From positions 1-64,000 of the forward strand of contig NZ_JACHEG010000015.1 of NCBI RefSeq assembly GCF_014201355.1: a stretch of DNA of 64,000 bases, in the 5' to 3' direction. The DNA is from Aliirhizobium wenxiniae. GTDB lineage: Bacteria > Pseudomonadota > Alphaproteobacteria > Rhizobiales > Rhizobiaceae. A model generated the notes under the pieces. It made no database searches, was not told the origin of the DNA, and saw only the letters and a program-made list of their open reading frames with translations. Positions 54,750 through 62,243 of the stretch are shown here, in pieces. Made by a program: the position numbers and the translations under genes. The first letter of the stretch is position 1. Every line of letters begins with the position of its first letter.

Positions 54750-55527
54750 GATGCGTGCCGACCTCAAATTCGGCAACGAAGAACAGAAGGAGCGCTTTCT
54801 GCCGCGCCTGGCACCAGGCGAATGGATCGGCAGTTTTGCGCTCACCGAACCGCAGGCAGGCTTGGACGCATCAACCTGAAGACGCGCGCGCGGCGTGATG
54901 GCGACCATTACGTCATCGACGGCGCGAAACAGTTCATCACCTCGGGCAAGAACGGGCAGATGATCATCGTCTTCGCCGTAACTGATCCTGACGCCGGCAA
55001 GAAGGGCATCACCGCCTTCATCGTCCCGACCGATACGCCAGGTTATGAGGTGATCCGTGTCGAGGAAAAGCTCGGCCTCCGTGCATCGGACACCTGCCAG
55101 ATCGCTTTCAACGAAATGCGCATACCGGCGGAACTCAGACTTGGAGAGGAAGGCGAGGGCTATCGCATCGCGCTCGCCACTCTTGAAGGTGGCCGGATCG
55201 GGATTGCCGCCCAGGCTGTCGGCATGGCACAGGCAGCGTTCGAGGCTGCGCGCGATTATGCCCGTGAGCGAAAGGCCTTCGGCAAGGCAATCATCGAGCA
55301 TCAGGCCGTAGCCTTCCGCCTTGCCATGTCTGTCCGAGGCTTCGATGGCCAAACTCTTCGCCTCGGAAATGGCGGAGCGTTTCTGTTCCGATGCGATCCA
55401 GATCCATGGCGGTTACGGCTATATGGCCGACTATCCGGTCAAACGTATCTATCGGGACGTACGCATATGCCGGAATTACGAAGGGACCAGTGACATACAG
55501 CGCATGGTCATTGCCCGTAATCTTTGA
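54750..55527 (+). pseudogene. Acyl-CoA dehydrogenase, 5'-truncated and frameshifted
   Basis: Directly at the element edge codons read [30 protein letters not shown] (FAD/substrate loop). At about 54873 one A is missing and the frame moves to [30 protein letters not shown]. After AFRLA near 55322 about 75 bases including the helix before the catalytic region are gone and another frame continues [40 protein letters not shown]. The N-terminal domain is absent. The gene is clearly dead. Confidence 0.87.
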
Positions 55528-55615: not shown

Positions 55616-55954
55616 TCAGGCCAGCTGCAGATCCAGCTGGGGAAAGAGTTTTTTCAGGTTCGGCAGCGACTTGGACTGCCAAGGGTACTGGGCCGTGCCT
55701 CTTATCACCAGTTGAACATCCGATTGCTTGCGCGCTTCTATCGTCAGCTTCGCCAGAAGATTGATCCCCGAAGAGTTCAAGAACTCCAAGCCAGTCAGAT
55801 CGAATATCACCCGGCCGTTATTCTCGTGAAGCGCCGCCGCCGCGAGCGAATAGATCGGTGCATAGGCATCCGGCCCGGCCAGCCGCAAAACGCCGTCGAA
55901 ATAGACACATTCGTTTTCGGCCCAGATTCGAAAGTTCTCATCCCTGATTTCCAT
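55616..55954 (-). CDS. STAS-like anti-anti-sigma type protein (slr1659 family)
   Basis: A 112-residue single-domain protein: RIWAENECVYFDGVLRLAGP, VIFDLTGLEFLNSSGINLLA with the phosphorylatable Ser pair at the STAS position, and YPWQSKSLPNLKKLFPQLDL. The LEFLNSSGIN and PWQxKSLxNL blocks match the slr1659 superfamily seen beside slr1658-type kinases. It should be phosphorylated by the neighbouring kinase-like protein and dephosphorylated by the PP2C. The ATG at 55954 lies seven bases after the slr1658-like stop. Confidence 0.8.
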   Translation of the reverse strand: MEIRDENFRIWAENECVYFDGVLRLAGPDAYAPIYSLAAAALHENNGRVIFDLTGLEFLNSSGINLLAKLTIEARKQSDVQLVIRGTAQYPWQSKSLPNLKKLFPQLDLQLA

Positions 55955-55961
55955 CTGCAGT

Positions 55962-56522
55962 TCACCCGTTTGAAGACAGTGGTAACGCAAGAGAGGCGGT
56001 CGTGGTAAGCGTAACGCGATCCTTGCCGGAAGTCTCGAACACCCATGCCAGGCGCGCATCATAGTCGGCCAGAAGCGTCAGCAAGCCCAATCCTGATCCG
56101 GTGGCATCGGATGCCGCATTCTCTTCGATCTGCTGAATAAGAAGTTCGCCCGGTTCAGCCGAAAGCATTTTTGCCAGGATCAACTGGAACCGTGCGGATG
56201 TATCGGTATCGATTTCATTTCGCACCCGCATCATGAAAACGTCGAGAGCTATGCAGGACTCGATGATGATATTGCCGGGCTGGCGGAATTTCACGGCATT
56301 CTCGATCAGCTCGTTGCTGAGATATCCGATGCTGTGATGAATATTGGCGTGAAGCGTTTTCGACGCCGCGAAGGGCAGCGACATCGCCTCGGCGATAAAG
56401 TCCGACGTCAGGCCGGAGTGTCGCCATCCGAGTTCGAGCGGGCCATCACTCAGTGTCAGGCAAGCTCCTGTCGAAAAGCTCGCTTCGCTAAGATCGTAGA
56501 TGCCCAAGACCGTTTTTGACAT
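55962..56522 (-). CDS. slr1658-like regulator with GHKL ATPase features
   Basis: A 186-residue protein. HHSIGYLSNELIENAVKFRQ is the N box of GHKL kinases such as anti-sigma factors RsbW/SpoIIAB and SiaB; GSGLGLLTLLADYDARLAWV is the G2-like lid. ELGWRHSGLTSDFIAEAMSL near the N-terminus and the final beta strands match the slr1658 superfamily. It is the likely protein kinase for the STAS-like partner. It lies three bases after the phosphatase gene and seven before the STAS gene. Confidence 0.77.
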   Translation of the reverse strand: MSKTVLGIYDLSEASFSTGACLTLSDGPLELGWRHSGLTSDFIAEAMSLPFAASKTLHANIHHSIGYLSNELIENAVKFRQPGNIIIESCIALDVFMMRVRNEIDTDTSARFQLILAKMLSAEPGELLIQQIEENAASDATGSGLGLLTLLADYDARLAWVFETSGKDRVTLTTTASLALPLSSNG

Positions 56523-56525
56523 GGA

Positions 56526-58880
56526 CTACCTGTGCCGTAAGACGAGAAGCGTGATGTCGTCGTGAATCTTATGCGAACCTATATAGGCCATCAGCTTGTC
56601 GATAATGCCGGTGGCGATGTGGTCCGCACTCTGTTCGTGCAATCGCACAGCCTCCTCGCAGAGGCGCTCGATACCGAAAAGCTCTCCTTCCGCGTTCTCG
56701 GCCTCCGTGACGCCATCGGTGTGAAGGACGATGATATCGTCTTTCTCGAGCGTAATCTTCCGGGTGTTCACGAAGGATGAGATATCGGACTCCAGCCCGA
56801 TCGGAAGGCCGAGATCCATCGTCTCGATCCGTTCCAGGGCGCCATTCGCCCGAACGATGATGACCTCTTCATGCTGGCCCGAGATGAACATGTCGTTTCC
56901 GTCATAGTCCAGAAATGCGAGGGTCAGATGCTTGTCGATCCTGGTGCGGACGATATTCTTGAACAGCGCGCTGTTGAGGTCGATGAGAAACTTGACTGGA
57001 TCGGTCGTGCCCGCTTCCTGCAAGGCTCTGGCGACGGATTGGACCATGAGCATGAGCACGCCGCTTTCCAGTCCATGGCCGGTTACATCGCCGATGCCGA
57101 TCTTGAACCGTCCGTCGGCTTCGAGGACGTCGTAGTAATCGCCGCCCACTTCATCGGCGGCACTCATATAGGCCGCGATCTCCAGGTCCTTTGATGAAGA
57201 CAATTCCGAGGCAAGAGGCAGAACCATCATCTGGATTCTCTCGGCAACCGCCAGTTCCGTCCCCAGGCGACGGTTCTCCCGTTCCAACTGGGCGTTGAGG
57301 ATCGATATTTCCTCCTTCGCATCTTCGATTTCGGCGGTTCGTTCCTCAACCAGCTGTTCGAGGTTTTCGGTGTGATAGCTGATCTGCTCGGCCATTCGGT
57401 TGAATGCTTCGCTTGCTTCACCGACTTCATCGCGACTGGCGACCGCCACGCGAACGGAATAGTCCTGCGCCTGGATCCGTCGCGCCGCGCCCGCTAGTGC
57501 GCTGATCCCGCCGGTGATGCGTTTCGAGACTGCAAGCACCGCCATCGTTACGATCGTCAGGGAAAGCAGGATTGCGAGGATCTGATAAAGAACGATGCGG
57601 TTGGTCGCATCGGAAATTTTGGCCTGGGCGGCAAACAGCGAGGCGTAGATTTCGCGCTCGGGCACGACGATCCCGAGTGACATGGCGTCTTTCCTCACCA
57701 GTCCCGGTTGCCACAGATTGACCGGTGGAAGCTCCTTCATGATCACCATGAAGGGCACGGTTTCACCGTTCTGATCCAGCAGAAGGTGTCGGATCCCGGT
57801 GCCGGGATTATTGGCCAGTTCGGCTATGGCGGGTTGTGAACTGCCCTTGAGCGAACGCTCCAGCCCTGTAACGCCGGTTCCCTTGGTGTCACTTGCCGAG
57901 CGCAGGCCAATCGTCTTTTCACCATCCTTGCTGATGGCAATGACGTTTCCGTCAGACATTGCCAGAAACCCGAAACCGCTCTCTGCAACCTTAACATTCT
58001 CAACCGTCTCGGCGAGCTGATCGAGAGTGATATCGGCGCCGGCGGTTCCGGCGACAGTTTTCCTATCAGCACTCCAGAGTGGATGAAAGAAGCTGACGAT
58101 CTGTTTGCCTGTTATCGCGTCGGTGTACGGAGCGGTCTGGGTAATGTCATCCGGAACGGGTTGCGACCCGGCGCCGGTCGCCCAGCTCTGCCATGACTCG
58201 TAAAGGCCGGGAAAAAAGAAGTCCCAGAAATTGGCGTCGTTATGCCCGGGATAAAGCCGGTCGAAAGTCTGTGCCTGGTCCGTGTAGGGCGCAGTCCTGA
58301 ATATCGGACGCTCCTTGGGGCCGATGAAATACATCTGAAGCTTCGAGGAGCCGCTCTTGAGAAGACTTGGCGCAACAAGATCGAGAATGGAACTTGCCTG
58401 AATTTCGGCCTGTACGTCGGGTCTTGGCGAGTGATCCTTATCCAGCAGATAGCCCCACGCGCTGACGACAGACGGTGCGCCGGGTGCGTTTTGCGCCCAC
58501 TTTCCGGCAGGATTGAAGGAAAGGCGCACGCTGTCCGGCGAAGTGCCTGAGATCGCAGACCCGATGTCTGCCTGTCTTTGCGGGCTGTCGATCTGCTCCT
58601 GCAGGACGTCTGCCAGTACACCAACGTCGTTGTTCACCTGGCCGAGAAGCAGAGAGACCTGGGCTGCAGTGGAATTCGCATAGGTGCGAATATAGTCTTG
58701 GCTCGCCTGCTCAAGCCCATGACCGACCTCCTCGGCCGCATCCCGCGACAGACGCTGAACGTTCCATAAGGCGAGCCCGCCACTGATCAGCAGATCAATG
58801 AGCACTGCCCCCCCGACAACGAGGATGAACTTCGCTCGAAACGAACCCCAGGGCCTGCTGCTGGTCGGTGTGTTGGTCAT
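56526..58880 (-). CDS. Membrane-bound PP2C (SpoIIE-type) phosphatase with dCache and HAMP
   Basis: A 784-residue receptor phosphatase. Helix 1 at about 17-39 (FILVVGGAVLIDLLISGGLA), a periplasmic double-Cache sensor to about 420 (SFFHPLWSADRKTVAGTAGA, DITLDQLAETV, SGFGFLAMSDGNVIAIS), helix 2 near 430-455, a HAMP and coiled coil (ENLEQLVEERTAEIEDAKEE), then the PP2C domain (SAADEVGGDYYDVLEADGRF, IGDVTGHGLESGVLMLMVQS, DDIIVLHTDGVTEAENAEGE). The layout is that of SiaA and RsbU-like phosphatases that release STAS partners on an outside signal. The ATG at 58880 overlaps the methyltransferase stop (TGATG). Confidence 0.9.
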   Translation of the reverse strand: MTNTPTSSRPWGSFRAKFILVVGGAVLIDLLISGGLALWNVQRLSRDAAEEVGHGLEQASQDYIRTYANSTAAQVSLLLGQVNNDVGVLADVLQEQIDSPQRQADIGSAISGTSPDSVRLSFNPAGKWAQNAPGAPSVVSAWGYLLDKDHSPRPDVQAEIQASSILDLVAPSLLKSGSSKLQMYFIGPKERPIFRTAPYTDQAQTFDRLYPGHNDANFWDFFFPGLYESWQSWATGAGSQPVPDDITQTAPYTDAITGKQIVSFFHPLWSADRKTVAGTAGADITLDQLAETVENVKVAESGFGFLAMSDGNVIAISKDGEKTIGLRSASDTKGTGVTGLERSLKGSSQPAIAELANNPGTGIRHLLLDQNGETVPFMVIMKELPPVNLWQPGLVRKDAMSLGIVVPEREIYASLFAAQAKISDATNRIVLYQILAILLSLTIVTMAVLAVSKRITGGISALAGAARRIQAQDYSVRVAVASRDEVGEASEAFNRMAEQISYHTENLEQLVEERTAEIEDAKEEISILNAQLERENRRLGTELAVAERIQMMVLPLASELSSSKDLEIAAYMSAADEVGGDYYDVLEADGRFKIGIGDVTGHGLESGVLMLMVQSVARALQEAGTTDPVKFLIDLNSALFKNIVRTRIDKHLTLAFLDYDGNDMFISGQHEEVIIVRANGALERIETMDLGLPIGLESDISSFVNTRKITLEKDDIIVLHTDGVTEAENAEGELFGIERLCEEAVRLHEQSADHIATGIIDKLMAYIGSHKIHDDITLLVLRHR

Positions 58881-60052
58881 CAATACGGTTTCCGCCCTGA
58901 TGCCGCCCAGATCGGCCATCCCGCATAACCCTTCGGGTGAAGGGCCGCGAGAACATGATCCTTGAAGCCTTGCCGAAACCGTCTGATGAAATCCGGCGTG
59001 TCGCCTCGCCGCACCGCCATCTGACCGGCATAGACGGTTTCCCATGCTTCGATCACATCGGCGAAATCCTGCGGATCTCCATCGAGGTTCGTCACCATGA
59101 AGGACTCGACCTTTATGGCATCGAAGCCTGCATCGTTCAGAAGTCGGCGGCTTTTCGGCCCCATCTCGACATCCATGTCGAAGTGACTGAAAAGCTTGGC
59201 TACCTGTTCATAGGTCCAGCGGATCGTTTCCGAATGCGGCTCGCCCAGGCAATGCGAGTTTTTCTCGTTGGTGATGTAGACCCTGCCACCCGGCTTGCAG
59301 ATCCGATACAGTTCGCGGAGCAGAACATCCGGGCGATCGAAGATCTGCAGTGAATGGCGGCAGGTGACGAAATCGAATTGATTGTCTGCCAGCAGCATCT
59401 GCGATGCGTCGCCATAGGTATATTCAATCGAATTCAAGCCGAATTCTGCCGCTACCCGTCTGGCATATTCCAGGCTTTTCTTCGAATGGTCCAAGGCGAC
59501 GAGACGCGTCGGATTAAATTGCCGTTTTATCAAGGTCGCGAAGTCCCCGATGCCACAGCAGATGTCTGCAATGGTCAAGCCATCGCGCAAGCCATGCCGG
59601 GGGAGAATTTCGCGCTCATGGCGCCAGGTCATTTTTGTCTGTGTTCGAAGGATCGGAATGAAGCTCTCGTCCTCCACGAAGGTTTGCCCCGGATAAAAGG
59701 CTGAATCATAAATCTCGACCGAGAGGTTGGGTTGGGTCGATGCCAGTGTCTGGAATAGGGGAGCGGACCAGGCGATGACGCTCGAGGTGACGACGACGAT
59801 CATGCGCTGCGGCTTCTGCTCGCAGGCGCTCTTCAACACTTCAGCAAGACAGCGAAAAGCGGTCATGTTCATATGGGTGAGGCGCTTTACGTTCACATAG
59901 GCGGTGCTGCCGCTCTCTGCGAGACTGCGCCGGACCATGTTGATCACACTTGCAATCTCCTGGACCGAGCGCGGACGCATTCTCCCGCTGAGCACGATCT
60001 CTTGGTTGATCTCGTTGAATTCTGCGGAAAATGAAGAGGTCTGTCGGCTCAA
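58880..60052 (-). CDS. STAS-like domain fused to SAM-dependent methyltransferase
   Basis: A 390-residue fusion. Residues 1-135: SVQEIASVINMVRRSLAESG, AYVNVKRLTHMNMTAFRCLA, MIVVVTSSVIAWSAPLFQTL, a STAS/slr1659-like fold without an evident phospho-Ser in the usual position. Residues 160-330: class I methyltransferase with ADICCGIGDFATLIKRQF (motif I), FDFVTCRHSLQIFDRPDVLL and ICKPGGRVYITNEKN. The TTG start at 60052 is chosen because it overlaps the upstream TGA (TTGA); a GTG or ATG nearby is lacking, and the frame to 60211 would overlap. Methylation target unknown; a small molecule or a signalling protein of the cassette are both possible. Confidence 0.78.
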   Translation of the reverse strand: MSRQTSSFSAEFNEINQEIVLSGRMRPRSVQEIASVINMVRRSLAESGSTAYVNVKRLTHMNMTAFRCLAEVLKSACEQKPQRMIVVVTSSVIAWSAPLFQTLASTQPNLSVEIYDSAFYPGQTFVEDESFIPILRTQTKMTWRHEREILPRHGLRDGLTIADICCGIGDFATLIKRQFNPTRLVALDHSKKSLEYARRVAAEFGLNSIEYTYGDASQMLLADNQFDFVTCRHSLQIFDRPDVLLRELYRICKPGGRVYITNEKNSHCLGEPHSETIRWTYEQVAKLFSHFDMDVEMGPKSRRLLNDAGFDAIKVESFMVTNLDGDPQDFADVIEAWETVYAGQMAVRRGDTPDFIRRFRQGFKDHVLAALHPKGYAGWPIWAASGRKPY

Positions 60053-60531
60053 CGAACAGCCTCCCGCGGGAGAAAATCTGCGATCAGCGTCACACGATCG
60101 TCTCCATCTATTTCGATATCGAGGCTCACCCCGATGGCCTGTGCAAGCATCATCAGGTGGTGAGCAGGGTGCTGGCCGCTTGAGTCGGCCGACCTGTCGA
60201 ACGAGGACCATGCCGCCCGGTTGTTCCTGTCATAGGAAAACGCGACGCTGGCACGCACGAGTGCTTCATTCCTGAGGAGATTGAAATCAATCCTGCCGAC
60301 CGGGATGGCCGAGCGAAAGGCCAGTTCGATGATCTCATTGATGAGAAGCGAGCTGAAATTGGCGCAACGGGCCGGGTCTTCGTGTGACTGGGCCAGAAGA
60401 TCTGCGAGATATTCGGCGATCGTGTCGCAAAGGCGAAATTCCGAGATGAACAGCCCGACATCCAGCGCCAAAGCTGCCATGTTCTTTAATGCGCCTGGTT
60501 TGGCGCTGATGTGTTGTCCGGTCATAATCAT
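60049..60531 (-). CDS. GHKL-like partner protein of the signalling cassette
   Basis: A 160-residue protein. NFSSLLINEIIELAFRSAIP resembles the N box (xNExxELA) of slr1658/SiaB-type kinases, followed by a core of beta strands with VTLIADFLPREAV; no clear G boxes are seen, so ATP binding is uncertain. Its place, overlapping the STAS-methyltransferase start, suggests it controls that protein as slr1658 controls slr1659. M3 at 60525 is an alternative start. Confidence 0.62.
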   Translation of the reverse strand: MIMTGQHISAKPGALKNMAALALDVGLFISEFRLCDTIAEYLADLLAQSHEDPARCANFSSLLINEIIELAFRSAIPVGRIDFNLLRNEALVRASVAFSYDRNNRAAWSSFDRSADSSGQHPAHHLMMLAQAIGVSLDIEIDGDDRVTLIADFLPREAVR

Positions 60532-60569
60532 CTTCGCCCGCCTTGCCGAAAGATGGTGAGGTATCGCTC

Positions 60570-62243
60570 TTACATACGAACATATTCATCGGGGATGATG
60601 GGCCGTCGAGTGACTGTTTTCAGCATAAATCCAGAACCTGCCACGAACTCTCTTATCGCCTGGGTGGGCAGGGGTTTGCCGATCGCATGACCCTGGAGGC
60701 GATCACATCCCAGACCACGGAGCCAGTCGGCCTGCTCCGCCGTTTCGACACCCTCGGCGGCAACTTCCATGCCCAGATCGTGAGCCAGGGTTATGACCGA
60801 ACGAACAATGGCCTGGCTCTTGGTATTCGTCTCAAGATCGGAGACGAAATACTTGTCGATCTTCAACGTGTCGAAGGGAAAGTTCTTCAGGTAGCTCAGG
60901 GAGGAATATTGCGTTCCAAAATCGTCGAGCGCTATCCTGATGCCGAGTACGCTGAGTGTGTTTAGAGTGTCGAGGTTGTTGACGGTGCGTTCCAGCAGCA
61001 CGCTCTCGGTGATCTCCAGCTCAAGACGGTCGGAAGCAAGACCGACACTATCGAGAACCTGGGAGATCCGATCGGTCAAACCGCTGACCAGGAACTCGGC
61101 AGGAGACAGGTTTACAGCGACGATATAGTCGGATGGCCAGTTCAGTGCTTCGCGACAGGCATTTTCTAGAACCCAGCGCCCGATCTCGCTCATCAGGCCA
61201 TCGGTCTCTGCCATCGGAATGAAAACCGCCGGAGGAATTTGCCCGAGTAGGGGATGCTGCCATCGCAACAGAGCCTCGAAGCCGATCAGCCGATCGCTTT
61301 CGGCAATCGGTTGATATTCGATGGAGAATTGATCCCTCTCCAAGGCTATCCGCAGGCTGCGCCTCAGAAGTTCCCTTTGCTCGATGATCTGCAGCATTGA
61401 AGCATCGAAGGCGCTGGCTCTGCCGCGGCCTTCCTTTTTTGCCGCGTAAAGGGCAACGTCGGAAGCCTTCATCAGGGTTTCCGGATCGGAGCCGTCGGCA
61501 GGTGCCGTGGAGATGCCGACGCTGAGACCGACAAACACCGAAATGCCGTCGATGGTGAAAGACTGCTTGAAGGCCTGGACGAGAGCGTCTCCCAATTCTC
61601 TCTGCCGCTGCTTGTGGCCGGAGGCTGTCGATATTATTGCGAATTCATCTCCCGCCAATCGATAGGCCCGCTCCGTGTCGGTGAGGCAGTCCTTGATCCG
61701 GCCTGCGGCAAACTGAAGGAGTTTGTCGCCGGCGGGGTGGCCTAACGTATCATTGACCGGTTTGAAATCATCGAGATCGAGTTGCATCAGGCAGACGGCA
61801 TTGCTCTCGGCCGGGATGCCCATGAGGACTGCCGACAGGTCGCTGGCAAACTGCCGCCGGTTTGGCAGCCCGGTCAGCGGATCGTGGGTCGCTTGATGCA
61901 GCAGGGCGGCCCGTTCTGCTCTGTCACCTGTCCGGTAGGTCTGTACAACGGCATAGAAATCACCGATGGCGTGAAGAGCAAGTTCGCGAAATGAGCCGTT
62001 ACCCAGGTCGTGGCTGAAATGAAGTGACTGCTTGTGCGCCGATTCCGAATAGCTGGTGACAGCCGTACTATCGAGCTCGGGATAGATATCCCACAGGAAG
62101 AGGTTACCTTCGCGCAGGGCGGGGTCTGTCAGGTCGGCCGTTGTCTCGACAAGTCTGAACTTTCGATCAAAGAGCGCGATTGTGTCAGCCCAATCTCCCG
62201 TAGCTTGTGTGGAATGCTGCCAACTGGATTGCGCATTGCTCAT
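60570..62243 (-). CDS. GGDEF-EAL protein (cyclic-di-GMP synthesis and breakdown)
   Basis: A 557-residue cytosolic protein. Residues 1-110 are a PAS-like sensor. The GGDEF domain (about 115-280) has DPLTGLPNRRQFASDL and the signature AGDEF at 197-201, a variant usually active. The EAL domain (about 300-545) has EALLRWQHP, NLSP, LELEITES, DDFGTQYSSLSYL, IDKYFV and AAEGVETAEQ, so its metal ligands are kept. It could make and degrade cyclic-di-GMP. It is first in the cassette, 38 bases before the next gene, and parallels SiaD in the SiaABCD system. Confidence 0.93.
   Translation of the reverse strand: MSNAQSSWQHSTQATGDWADTIALFDRKFRLVETTADLTDPALREGNLFLWDIYPELDSTAVTSYSESAHKQSLHFSHDLGNGSFRELALHAIGDFYAVVQTYRTGDRAERAALLHQATHDPLTGLPNRRQFASDLSAVLMGIPAESNAVCLMQLDLDDFKPVNDTLGHPAGDKLLQFAAGRIKDCLTDTERAYRLAGDEFAIISTASGHKQRQRELGDALVQAFKQSFTIDGISVFVGLSVGISTAPADGSDPETLMKASDVALYAAKKEGRGRASAFDASMLQIIEQRELLRRSLRIALERDQFSIEYQPIAESDRLIGFEALLRWQHPLLGQIPPAVFIPMAETDGLMSEIGRWVLENACREALNWPSDYIVAVNLSPAEFLVSGLTDRISQVLDSVGLASDRLELEITESVLLERTVNNLDTLNTLSVLGIRIALDDFGTQYSSLSYLKNFPFDTLKIDKYFVSDLETNTKSQAIVRSVITLAHDLGMEVAAEGVETAEQADWLRGLGCDRLQGHAIGKPLPTQAIREFVAGSGFMLKTVTRRPIIPDEYVRM

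Follow-up and report, generated by a model that had tools for sequence, protein, structure and literature searches.

In the first 64,000 nucleotides of contig NZ_JACHEG010000015.1 of Aliirhizobium wenxiniae (the window), six consecutive minus-strand genes, here labeled A to F, encode a c-di-GMP enzyme, a membrane phosphatase, two GHKL proteins, a STAS protein, and a methyltransferase with a STAS-like N-terminus (Table 1). A reading of the open reading frames of the window confirmed that all six frames are open and that the cassette is present; its genes are tightly packed, with gaps of 38 bases between A and B, 3 between D and E, and 7 between E and F, and overlaps of 4 bases between B and C (TTGA) and 1 base between C and D. 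Matches over the Pfam cut-offs were obtained for GGDEF and EAL (A), the methyltransferase (C), HAMP and SpoIIE/PP2C (D), and STAS (F); B and E had no Pfam match up to an E value of 1, and the HATPase_c_2 profile, which a preliminary description of this DNA had listed beside STAS, PP2C, and GGDEF/EAL, matched nothing in the cassette. That description of a six-gene operon with these domains is borne out by the frames, the spacing, the profile matches, and the same gene order in 79 of 80 loci, and its view that a GHKL/STAS pair is duplicated beside one phosphatase, with one copy fused to a methyltransferase, agrees with the homology of B with E and of C with F and with the fold of B. Our reading, which we hold with evenly divided confidence, is that the cassette is a signal-gated methylation switch in which a live D-E-F partner switch stands beside a phosphotransfer-dead pair, B-C, that is fused to an enzyme.

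Table 1. Genes of the cassette, in order of transcription
Gene	Coordinates	Strand	Product	Basis
A	60570..62243	-	GGDEF-EAL protein, 557 amino acids; AGDEF variant, EAL motifs kept; lineage-variable member	Pfam GGDEF and EAL
B	60049..60531	-	Degenerate GHKL protein, 160 amino acids; slr1658-like, predicted pseudokinase	AlphaFold2 model, PDB fold matches, motif losses
C	58880..60052	-	STAS-like domain (about residues 1-117) and class I S-adenosylmethionine (SAM) methyltransferase, 390 amino acids; TTG start	NF047705, profile comparison, Pfam, fold
D	56526..58880	-	Membrane sensor phosphatase, dCache-like-HAMP-PP2C (SpoIIE), 784 amino acids	Pfam, own-genome search, catalytic motifs
E	55962..56522	-	slr1658-superfamily GHKL protein, 186 amino acids; intact N box and G2 motif, predicted Ser kinase	NF047703
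F	55616..55954	-	slr1659-superfamily STAS protein, 112 amino acids; predicted acceptor Ser in NSSG	NF047705

D, E, and F are predicted to make up one live switch with a PP2C phosphatase, a GHKL kinase, and a STAS acceptor. D matches PF07228 (SpoIIE) at 135.4 bits, over the cut-off, and its PP2C catalytic motifs are kept in 95 of 95 aligned rows with few conservative changes (EVGGDYYD in all 95). The dCache match of D lies below the Pfam cut-off (30.8 against 45 bits); the sensor part is strongly conserved over the same 95 rows, which suggests one class of ligand. E scores 166 bits against NF047703 (slr1658) and F scores 128.6 bits against NF047705 (slr1659), both above the curated cut-off of 100; the GHKL fold proposed earlier for the product at 55962 is thus favored by its profile, and its assignment as a kinase is a prediction from sequence. 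The motif NSSG occurs in 85 of 85 distinct F sequences, placing the predicted acceptor after an asparagine, as with Ser58 in SpoIIAA. The genome of A. wenxiniae holds one SpoIIE (PF07228) match, which is D, one slr1658 match, and two slr1659 matches, which are F and C; D is therefore probably dedicated to this cassette.

B matches the NCBIfam slr1658 profile weakly (14.7 bits, E value 0.015, against a cut-off of 100 bits), and its relatives score higher (27.8 bits in Sinorhizobium meliloti, 83.6 bits at locus L112) while still falling below that cut-off. A profile-profile alignment of B with E spans the N box (E value 3.9e-5, probability 70.6), and an AlphaFold2 model of B built from 53 sequences is confident (mean predicted local distance difference test score 85.1, predicted template modeling score 0.81). 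Because of these four lines of evidence, we identify B as a probable GHKL protein homologous to E. The model has an anti-sigma-kinase fold, in keeping with the GHKL fold suggested for the product at 60049: the closest solved structures, in searches that included Foldseek, are the anti-sigma kinases UsfX (Z 14.1, root-mean-square deviation 2.2, 123 aligned), SpoIIAB (Z 13.3), and RsbW (Z 12.6), followed by SiaB (Z 11.2). Searches of the PDB with the sequences of B and E gave no trusted match.

In GHKL kinases, the N-box asparagine holds magnesium. Once re-fetched copies and identical sequences had been removed, and with three loci of family f126 kept outside the counts, none of the 96 distinct B sequences had this residue, and all 94 E sequences did; the B proteins of the three f126 loci lack it too. 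The G2 motif is missing from 95 of 96 B sequences, the remaining one being G2-like, and E carries it as SGLG in 93 of 94; at the position aligned with the invariant Asn102 of E, B has phenylalanine in 84 of 96. We therefore predict that B is a pseudokinase. It is the fastest-evolving of the parts compared, and its ratio of nonsynonymous to synonymous substitution rates (dN/dS) was 0.18 and 0.22 in two comparisons in which dS exceeded 1 and was near saturation, indicating that B is under purifying selection. A homologue of B in S. meliloti Ak57 (L135, 9459-9977) is annotated as the ubiquinone methyltransferase UbiE, a label that finds no support in the family's fold or sequence.

One correction to the six genes concerns the start of C. 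We rejected ATG 60211 as this start, as the open frames of 91 of 100 relatives are too short for the 53 extra residues; judging from these frames, the product should be 390 amino acids long and begin at TTG 60052, which overlaps the stop codon of B. In one annotated relative, the depositor placed the start 24 codons further downstream. The N-terminus of C scores 35.5 bits against NF047705 (E value 1e-8), below the cut-off of 100, and a profile comparison of this part with F (probability 95, E value 3.6e-8) aligns N-M-T-A of C with N-S-S-G of F; the two domains are accordingly judged homologous, and the STAS domain earlier proposed at the methyltransferase N-terminus is STAS-like by this comparison. 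The order of strands and helices in the first 115 residues of the model is also STAS-like. A search of the PDB with the sequence of this domain gave no trusted match, the best (E values 0.0007 and 0.0011) being designed repeat proteins, and the PDB match lists of the C model held nothing STAS-like, being filled by the methyltransferase part, whose matches are class I enzymes, UbiG among them (Z 16.1). At the acceptor position, C has serine in 6 of 96 sequences, asparagine in 46, methionine in 35, and other residues in 9, so that 90 of 96 lack serine; the three f126 loci read NNVAF here. The SAM motif is kept in 116 of 116 rows, with a conservative change in 6. The C-terminal tail (58883-58930), GWPIWAASGRKP, is identical in 67 of the 116 rows, and the next three forms differ from it at one or two places; the tail may contribute to the acceptor site or form a contact. 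By sequence, B-C is an ancient copy of the GHKL/STAS pair in which the kinase no longer has its nucleotide motifs and C, for the most part, no longer has the acceptor serine. Phosphate should therefore be neither passed on nor taken up by this second pair in the ordinary manner.

Rate covariation between parts of the cassette was analyzed in 56 loci (from 95, dereplicated at 93%), with the branch lengths of each part fitted on one tree of 107 branches, giving 21 pairs of parts; family f126 and gene A were left out of this set. On relative rates, B and the STAS domain of C gave the highest correlation of the 21 pairs (rho 0.58), followed by E with F (0.39), the methyltransferase of C with the sensor of D (0.39), B with E (0.32), and the PP2C domain of D with E (0.28). 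Partial rank correlations were computed in six branch subsets, and in every one of them B with the C STAS domain ranked first or second (0.40 to 0.53). Most high-scoring pairs are operon neighbors, and the proteins were therefore split further; the partial correlations were then 0.52 for B with the C STAS domain, 0.42 for the PP2C domain of D with E, 0.35 for B with E, and 0.26 for E with F. The C STAS domain was uncorrelated with the two halves of its own methyltransferase (-0.02 for the adjoining half and 0.02 for the other; 0.13 between the halves), so neighborhood alone does not explain its signal with B. Covariation thus supports B as the likely partner of the STAS domain of C and, less firmly, suggests a link between B and E.

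Scanning genome contigs with C identified 193 relatives, and the loci of the best 80 were read. The order and strand of A-B-C-D-E-F are kept in 79 of these 80, and the exception, L072, is cut by a contig end after part of D. Eighteen further loci from five families were read, 15 from an order sample (L105-L119) and three from f126 (L131-L133), and B-C-D-E-F stand together in all 18; this core is therefore intact in 97 of 98 loci, the contig-cut locus being the exception and L071 and L119 probably being one genome counted twice, and the co-occurrence anticipated in the preliminary description is conserved. In the order sample, 23 of 397 genomes (own included) match C at an E value of at most 1e-15, 21 of them over the full length; the other two are weak matches to generic methyltransferases (L023 and L024, the same as L120 and L121) with no B, D, E, or F adjoining and were excluded from the cassette counts. 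The class sample gave 4 of 385 (own and three of f126) and the phylum sample 6 of 398, all from the own family. Among plasmids, C was matched in 120 of 72,556 records; pSymB of S. meliloti 1021 carries all six genes in order, and the cassette is also found in Rhizobium johnstonii 3841 and others. The cassette is thus frequent in Rhizobiaceae and patchy elsewhere in the sampled alphaproteobacteria.

Gene A is the variable member. Of its 89 aligned rows, 86 read AGDEF (the other 3 are gapped) and 88 read FEAL, and the gene is present in 79 of the 80 loci and in the contig-cut L072 as well. Among the further loci, it is kept in 5 of 18 (L107 and L113 of f50; L117, L118, and L119 of f1) and is missing beside the core in the 13 of f23, f41, and f126. 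We therefore regard c-di-GMP as a lineage add-on and the methyltransferase as belonging to the core; c-di-GMP as a shared output was considered, and the absence of A beside the core in these three families speaks against the c-di-GMP link of the preliminary description as a theme common to all loci. Of the 13 loci without A, 9 (L105, L106, L108, L109, L110, L111, L131, L132, and L133) have another PP2C-like gene, located on the opposite strand and no more than about 2.5 kb from B; Pfam identifies it as SpoIIE in three of the nine, and it was not seen in the 5 of 18 loci with A.

In the switch that we propose, an extracellular ligand would bind the dCache-like domain of D and change its phosphatase activity, and F would be phosphorylated by E and dephosphorylated by D at the NSSG serine. 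B would be non-catalytic and would grip C through its STAS domain, and the phosphorylation state of D-E-F would determine what B does to the methyltransferase: hold it, release it, block it, or activate it. This could happen by two routes: B may pair with E, as GHKL proteins dimerize, or unphosphorylated F may draw B off C. An output arm that has lost both phosphotransfer ends would not itself be a substrate, leaving F as the sole carrier of the signal, and A would be an added second output or input in Rhizobiaceae and one other family. A narrower proposal, which we put forward tentatively and with slightly less than even confidence, is that B and the C STAS domain form a pseudokinase/pseudosubstrate clamp, a phosphorylation-blind handle that places a SAM methyltransferase under an extracellular signal.

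Several observations weigh against this picture. No result ties D-E-F directly to B-C: the covariation of B with F is weak (0.12) and gives an exchange between them little support, and that of B with E is down to 0.10 when long branches alone are used and to 0.15 with short ones alone. The methyltransferase of C and the sensor of D, a pair that our model does not predict, came first in two subsets (0.55); the same pair is outside the best six in the short-branch subset and in the subset without L105-L117. The own genome also has 38 HATPase_c_2 matches, 5 above the cut-off and none in the cassette, so other GHKL partners exist. The model of C is poor (mean predicted local distance difference test score 68.4, predicted template modeling score 0.54), and the call of a STAS-like domain in it was made from profiles and secondary-structure order instead of a fold search. 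Finally, the degeneracy of the second pair may be incomplete: the N-E..E of the N box is retained in 96 of 96 B sequences, given which B may still bind nucleotide, and the residue after the acceptor site is threonine in 82 of 96 C sequences and could serve as the acceptor in many members.

This threonine, together with the matching order of the two pairs, the fold of B, and the STAS-like domain of C, is what favors two working kinase/substrate pairs, B acting on C and E on F, that share D. The preliminary description had arrived at that arrangement, but the loss of the magnesium-binding asparagine from every B sequence and of G2 from all but one, the phenylalanine that replaces Asn102 of E, and the scarcity of the acceptor serine in C make it very improbable, and we do not uphold it. 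At the opposite extreme, B and the C STAS domain could be relics that merely stabilize the methyltransferase, with no regulation by D-E-F and the genes just co-transcribed. The lost catalytic ends, and the fact that no result ties the pair to D-E-F, speak for this, but B-C-D-E-F stay together in 97 of 98 loci while the flanks change, and we consider it quite unlikely.

Two further readings keep D-E-F live and change what it acts on. F could bind A in one phosphorylation state and so set c-di-GMP turnover, as in SiaABCD, leaving B-C as an arm that is independent or of second rank. In 79 of 80 loci, A is the first gene of the operon, and there are precedents: SiaD is activated by SiaC in its unphosphorylated form, and HsbD is bound by HsbA once HsbA is phosphorylated, according to the excerpts consulted (PMC8457831, PMC6482189); A is, however, absent beside the core in 13 of the 18 loci that keep the core and so is not the general target, and it lies outside the covariation set. 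We think this reading unlikely. The other is a version of our own model in which B works by forming a heterodimer with E, the live kinase, which it inhibits or directs to another target, instead of being displaced by F, and the C STAS domain is the third partner. The partial covariation of B and E (0.35) arises although the two are not operon neighbors, and RsbW3 pairs with RsbW1 in Mycobacterium smegmatis (excerpt of PMC10950880), but the signal drops in the long-only and short-only subsets; this version, too, has the chances against it.

The cassette is common in well-studied symbionts. If the methylation switch is correct, fusion to a STAS domain is one way for a partner switch to govern an enzyme, selection can maintain a dead GHKL/STAS pair in the role of a clamp, and a methyltransferase would be a partner-switch output that our literature searches, which covered titles and the starts of abstracts, did not turn up; nothing on point for a STAS-methyltransferase partner switch was found there. 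The cassette also offers a test system in laboratory strains, where separate searches are possible for the D ligand, the F phosphoprotein, and the acceptor that C methylates.

Around the cassette, no family of flanking frames (at least 150 amino acids) recurs in more than 15 of 42 dereplicated loci. At two f41 loci, L110 (7769-9591 and 9738-15939) and L111 (6323-10065), the core is next to type VI secretion genes and to another PP2C/RsbW/STAS set, of the conventional kind; the secretion genes of L110 are TssA/ImpA and VipA by Pfam, and the L111 assignment is from translation only. Polyamine-type ABC transporter-like genes lie beside the core at L112 (1874-7813) and L114 (1083-7143) of f41 and at L131 (1772-5285) of f126, the L131 ATPase being called by Pfam and the others by translation, and L112 also has a creatinase/M24 peptidase gene; these transporter and peptidase neighbors are a possible hint at the ligand or substrate. 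On a Rhizobium plasmid (L147, 15415-17571), the annotation places a bcsA cellulose synthase downstream of the cassette. In the window, 54822-55493 (plus strand) reads in translation as an acyl-CoA dehydrogenase remnant, in frame in mid-protein and apparently out of register at both ends, and is probably a pseudogene. A promoter scan gave 2 sites against a shuffle mean of 3.1, and a terminator scan gave 10 against 6.5 (standard deviation 2.8); no regulatory site is claimed.

A published function for the cassette was not turned up by our literature searches, and putative S. meliloti locus tags for it, whose record carries no annotation, retrieved no paper. The consulted part of PMC10315480 mentions partner switching for RsiB1 only, that of PMC2887360 has nothing on the cassette locus, and the word methyltransferase is absent from the text of a review of STAS-only proteins (PMC8256260). 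The SiaABCD system of Pseudomonas aeruginosa likewise unites in one operon a HAMP-PP2C phosphatase, a GHKL kinase, a small phosphoprotein, and a c-di-GMP enzyme; as excerpted, SiaA and SiaB set the phosphorylation of SiaC, which activates SiaD when unphosphorylated (PMC7647112, PMC8457831), and the SiaC acceptor, T68, follows an asparagine in LNTSS (PMC7647112), as the predicted acceptor of F does. The cassette differs in adding a dead GHKL protein and a STAS-methyltransferase, and its c-di-GMP gene is optional and of the GGDEF-EAL type. Membership in SiaABCD was rejected, the scores being far below the profile cut-offs (SiaA, 126.4 against 700 bits; SiaB, 13.8 against 85; SiaD, 90.9 against 290), and F had no SiaC-named match at E values up to 1 in Pfam and NCBIfam, libraries that were not checked for a SiaC profile; by the SiaA, SiaB, and SiaD scores, SiaABCD is an analogue of the cassette and not of the same family. 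The HsbR-HsbA-HsbD system of P. aeruginosa shares with our model one STAS protein that serves several partners, including a diguanylate cyclase, whereas its PP2C and kinase share one response regulator, and neither a methyltransferase nor a dead pair is described in the excerpted text (PMC6482189). RsbU-RsbV-RsbW and SpoIIE-SpoIIAA-SpoIIAB have the same PP2C, GHKL kinase, and STAS phosphoprotein, and the predicted fold of B is that of SpoIIAB, RsbW, and UsfX; the cassette, in contrast, has no sigma factor gene, its presumed target is an enzyme with a STAS domain of its own, and B is degenerate. In the RsbW1/RsbW3 system of M. smegmatis, an additional RsbW homologue works through protein contact, forming a heterodimer, much as B might; the target there is SigF, and the excerpted text mentions no STAS-enzyme fusion (PMC10950880). 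Closest by profile are the slr1658 and slr1659 superfamilies of NCBIfam, to which E and F belong by scores over the cut-offs and to which B and C, with scores below them, appear to be remote relatives.

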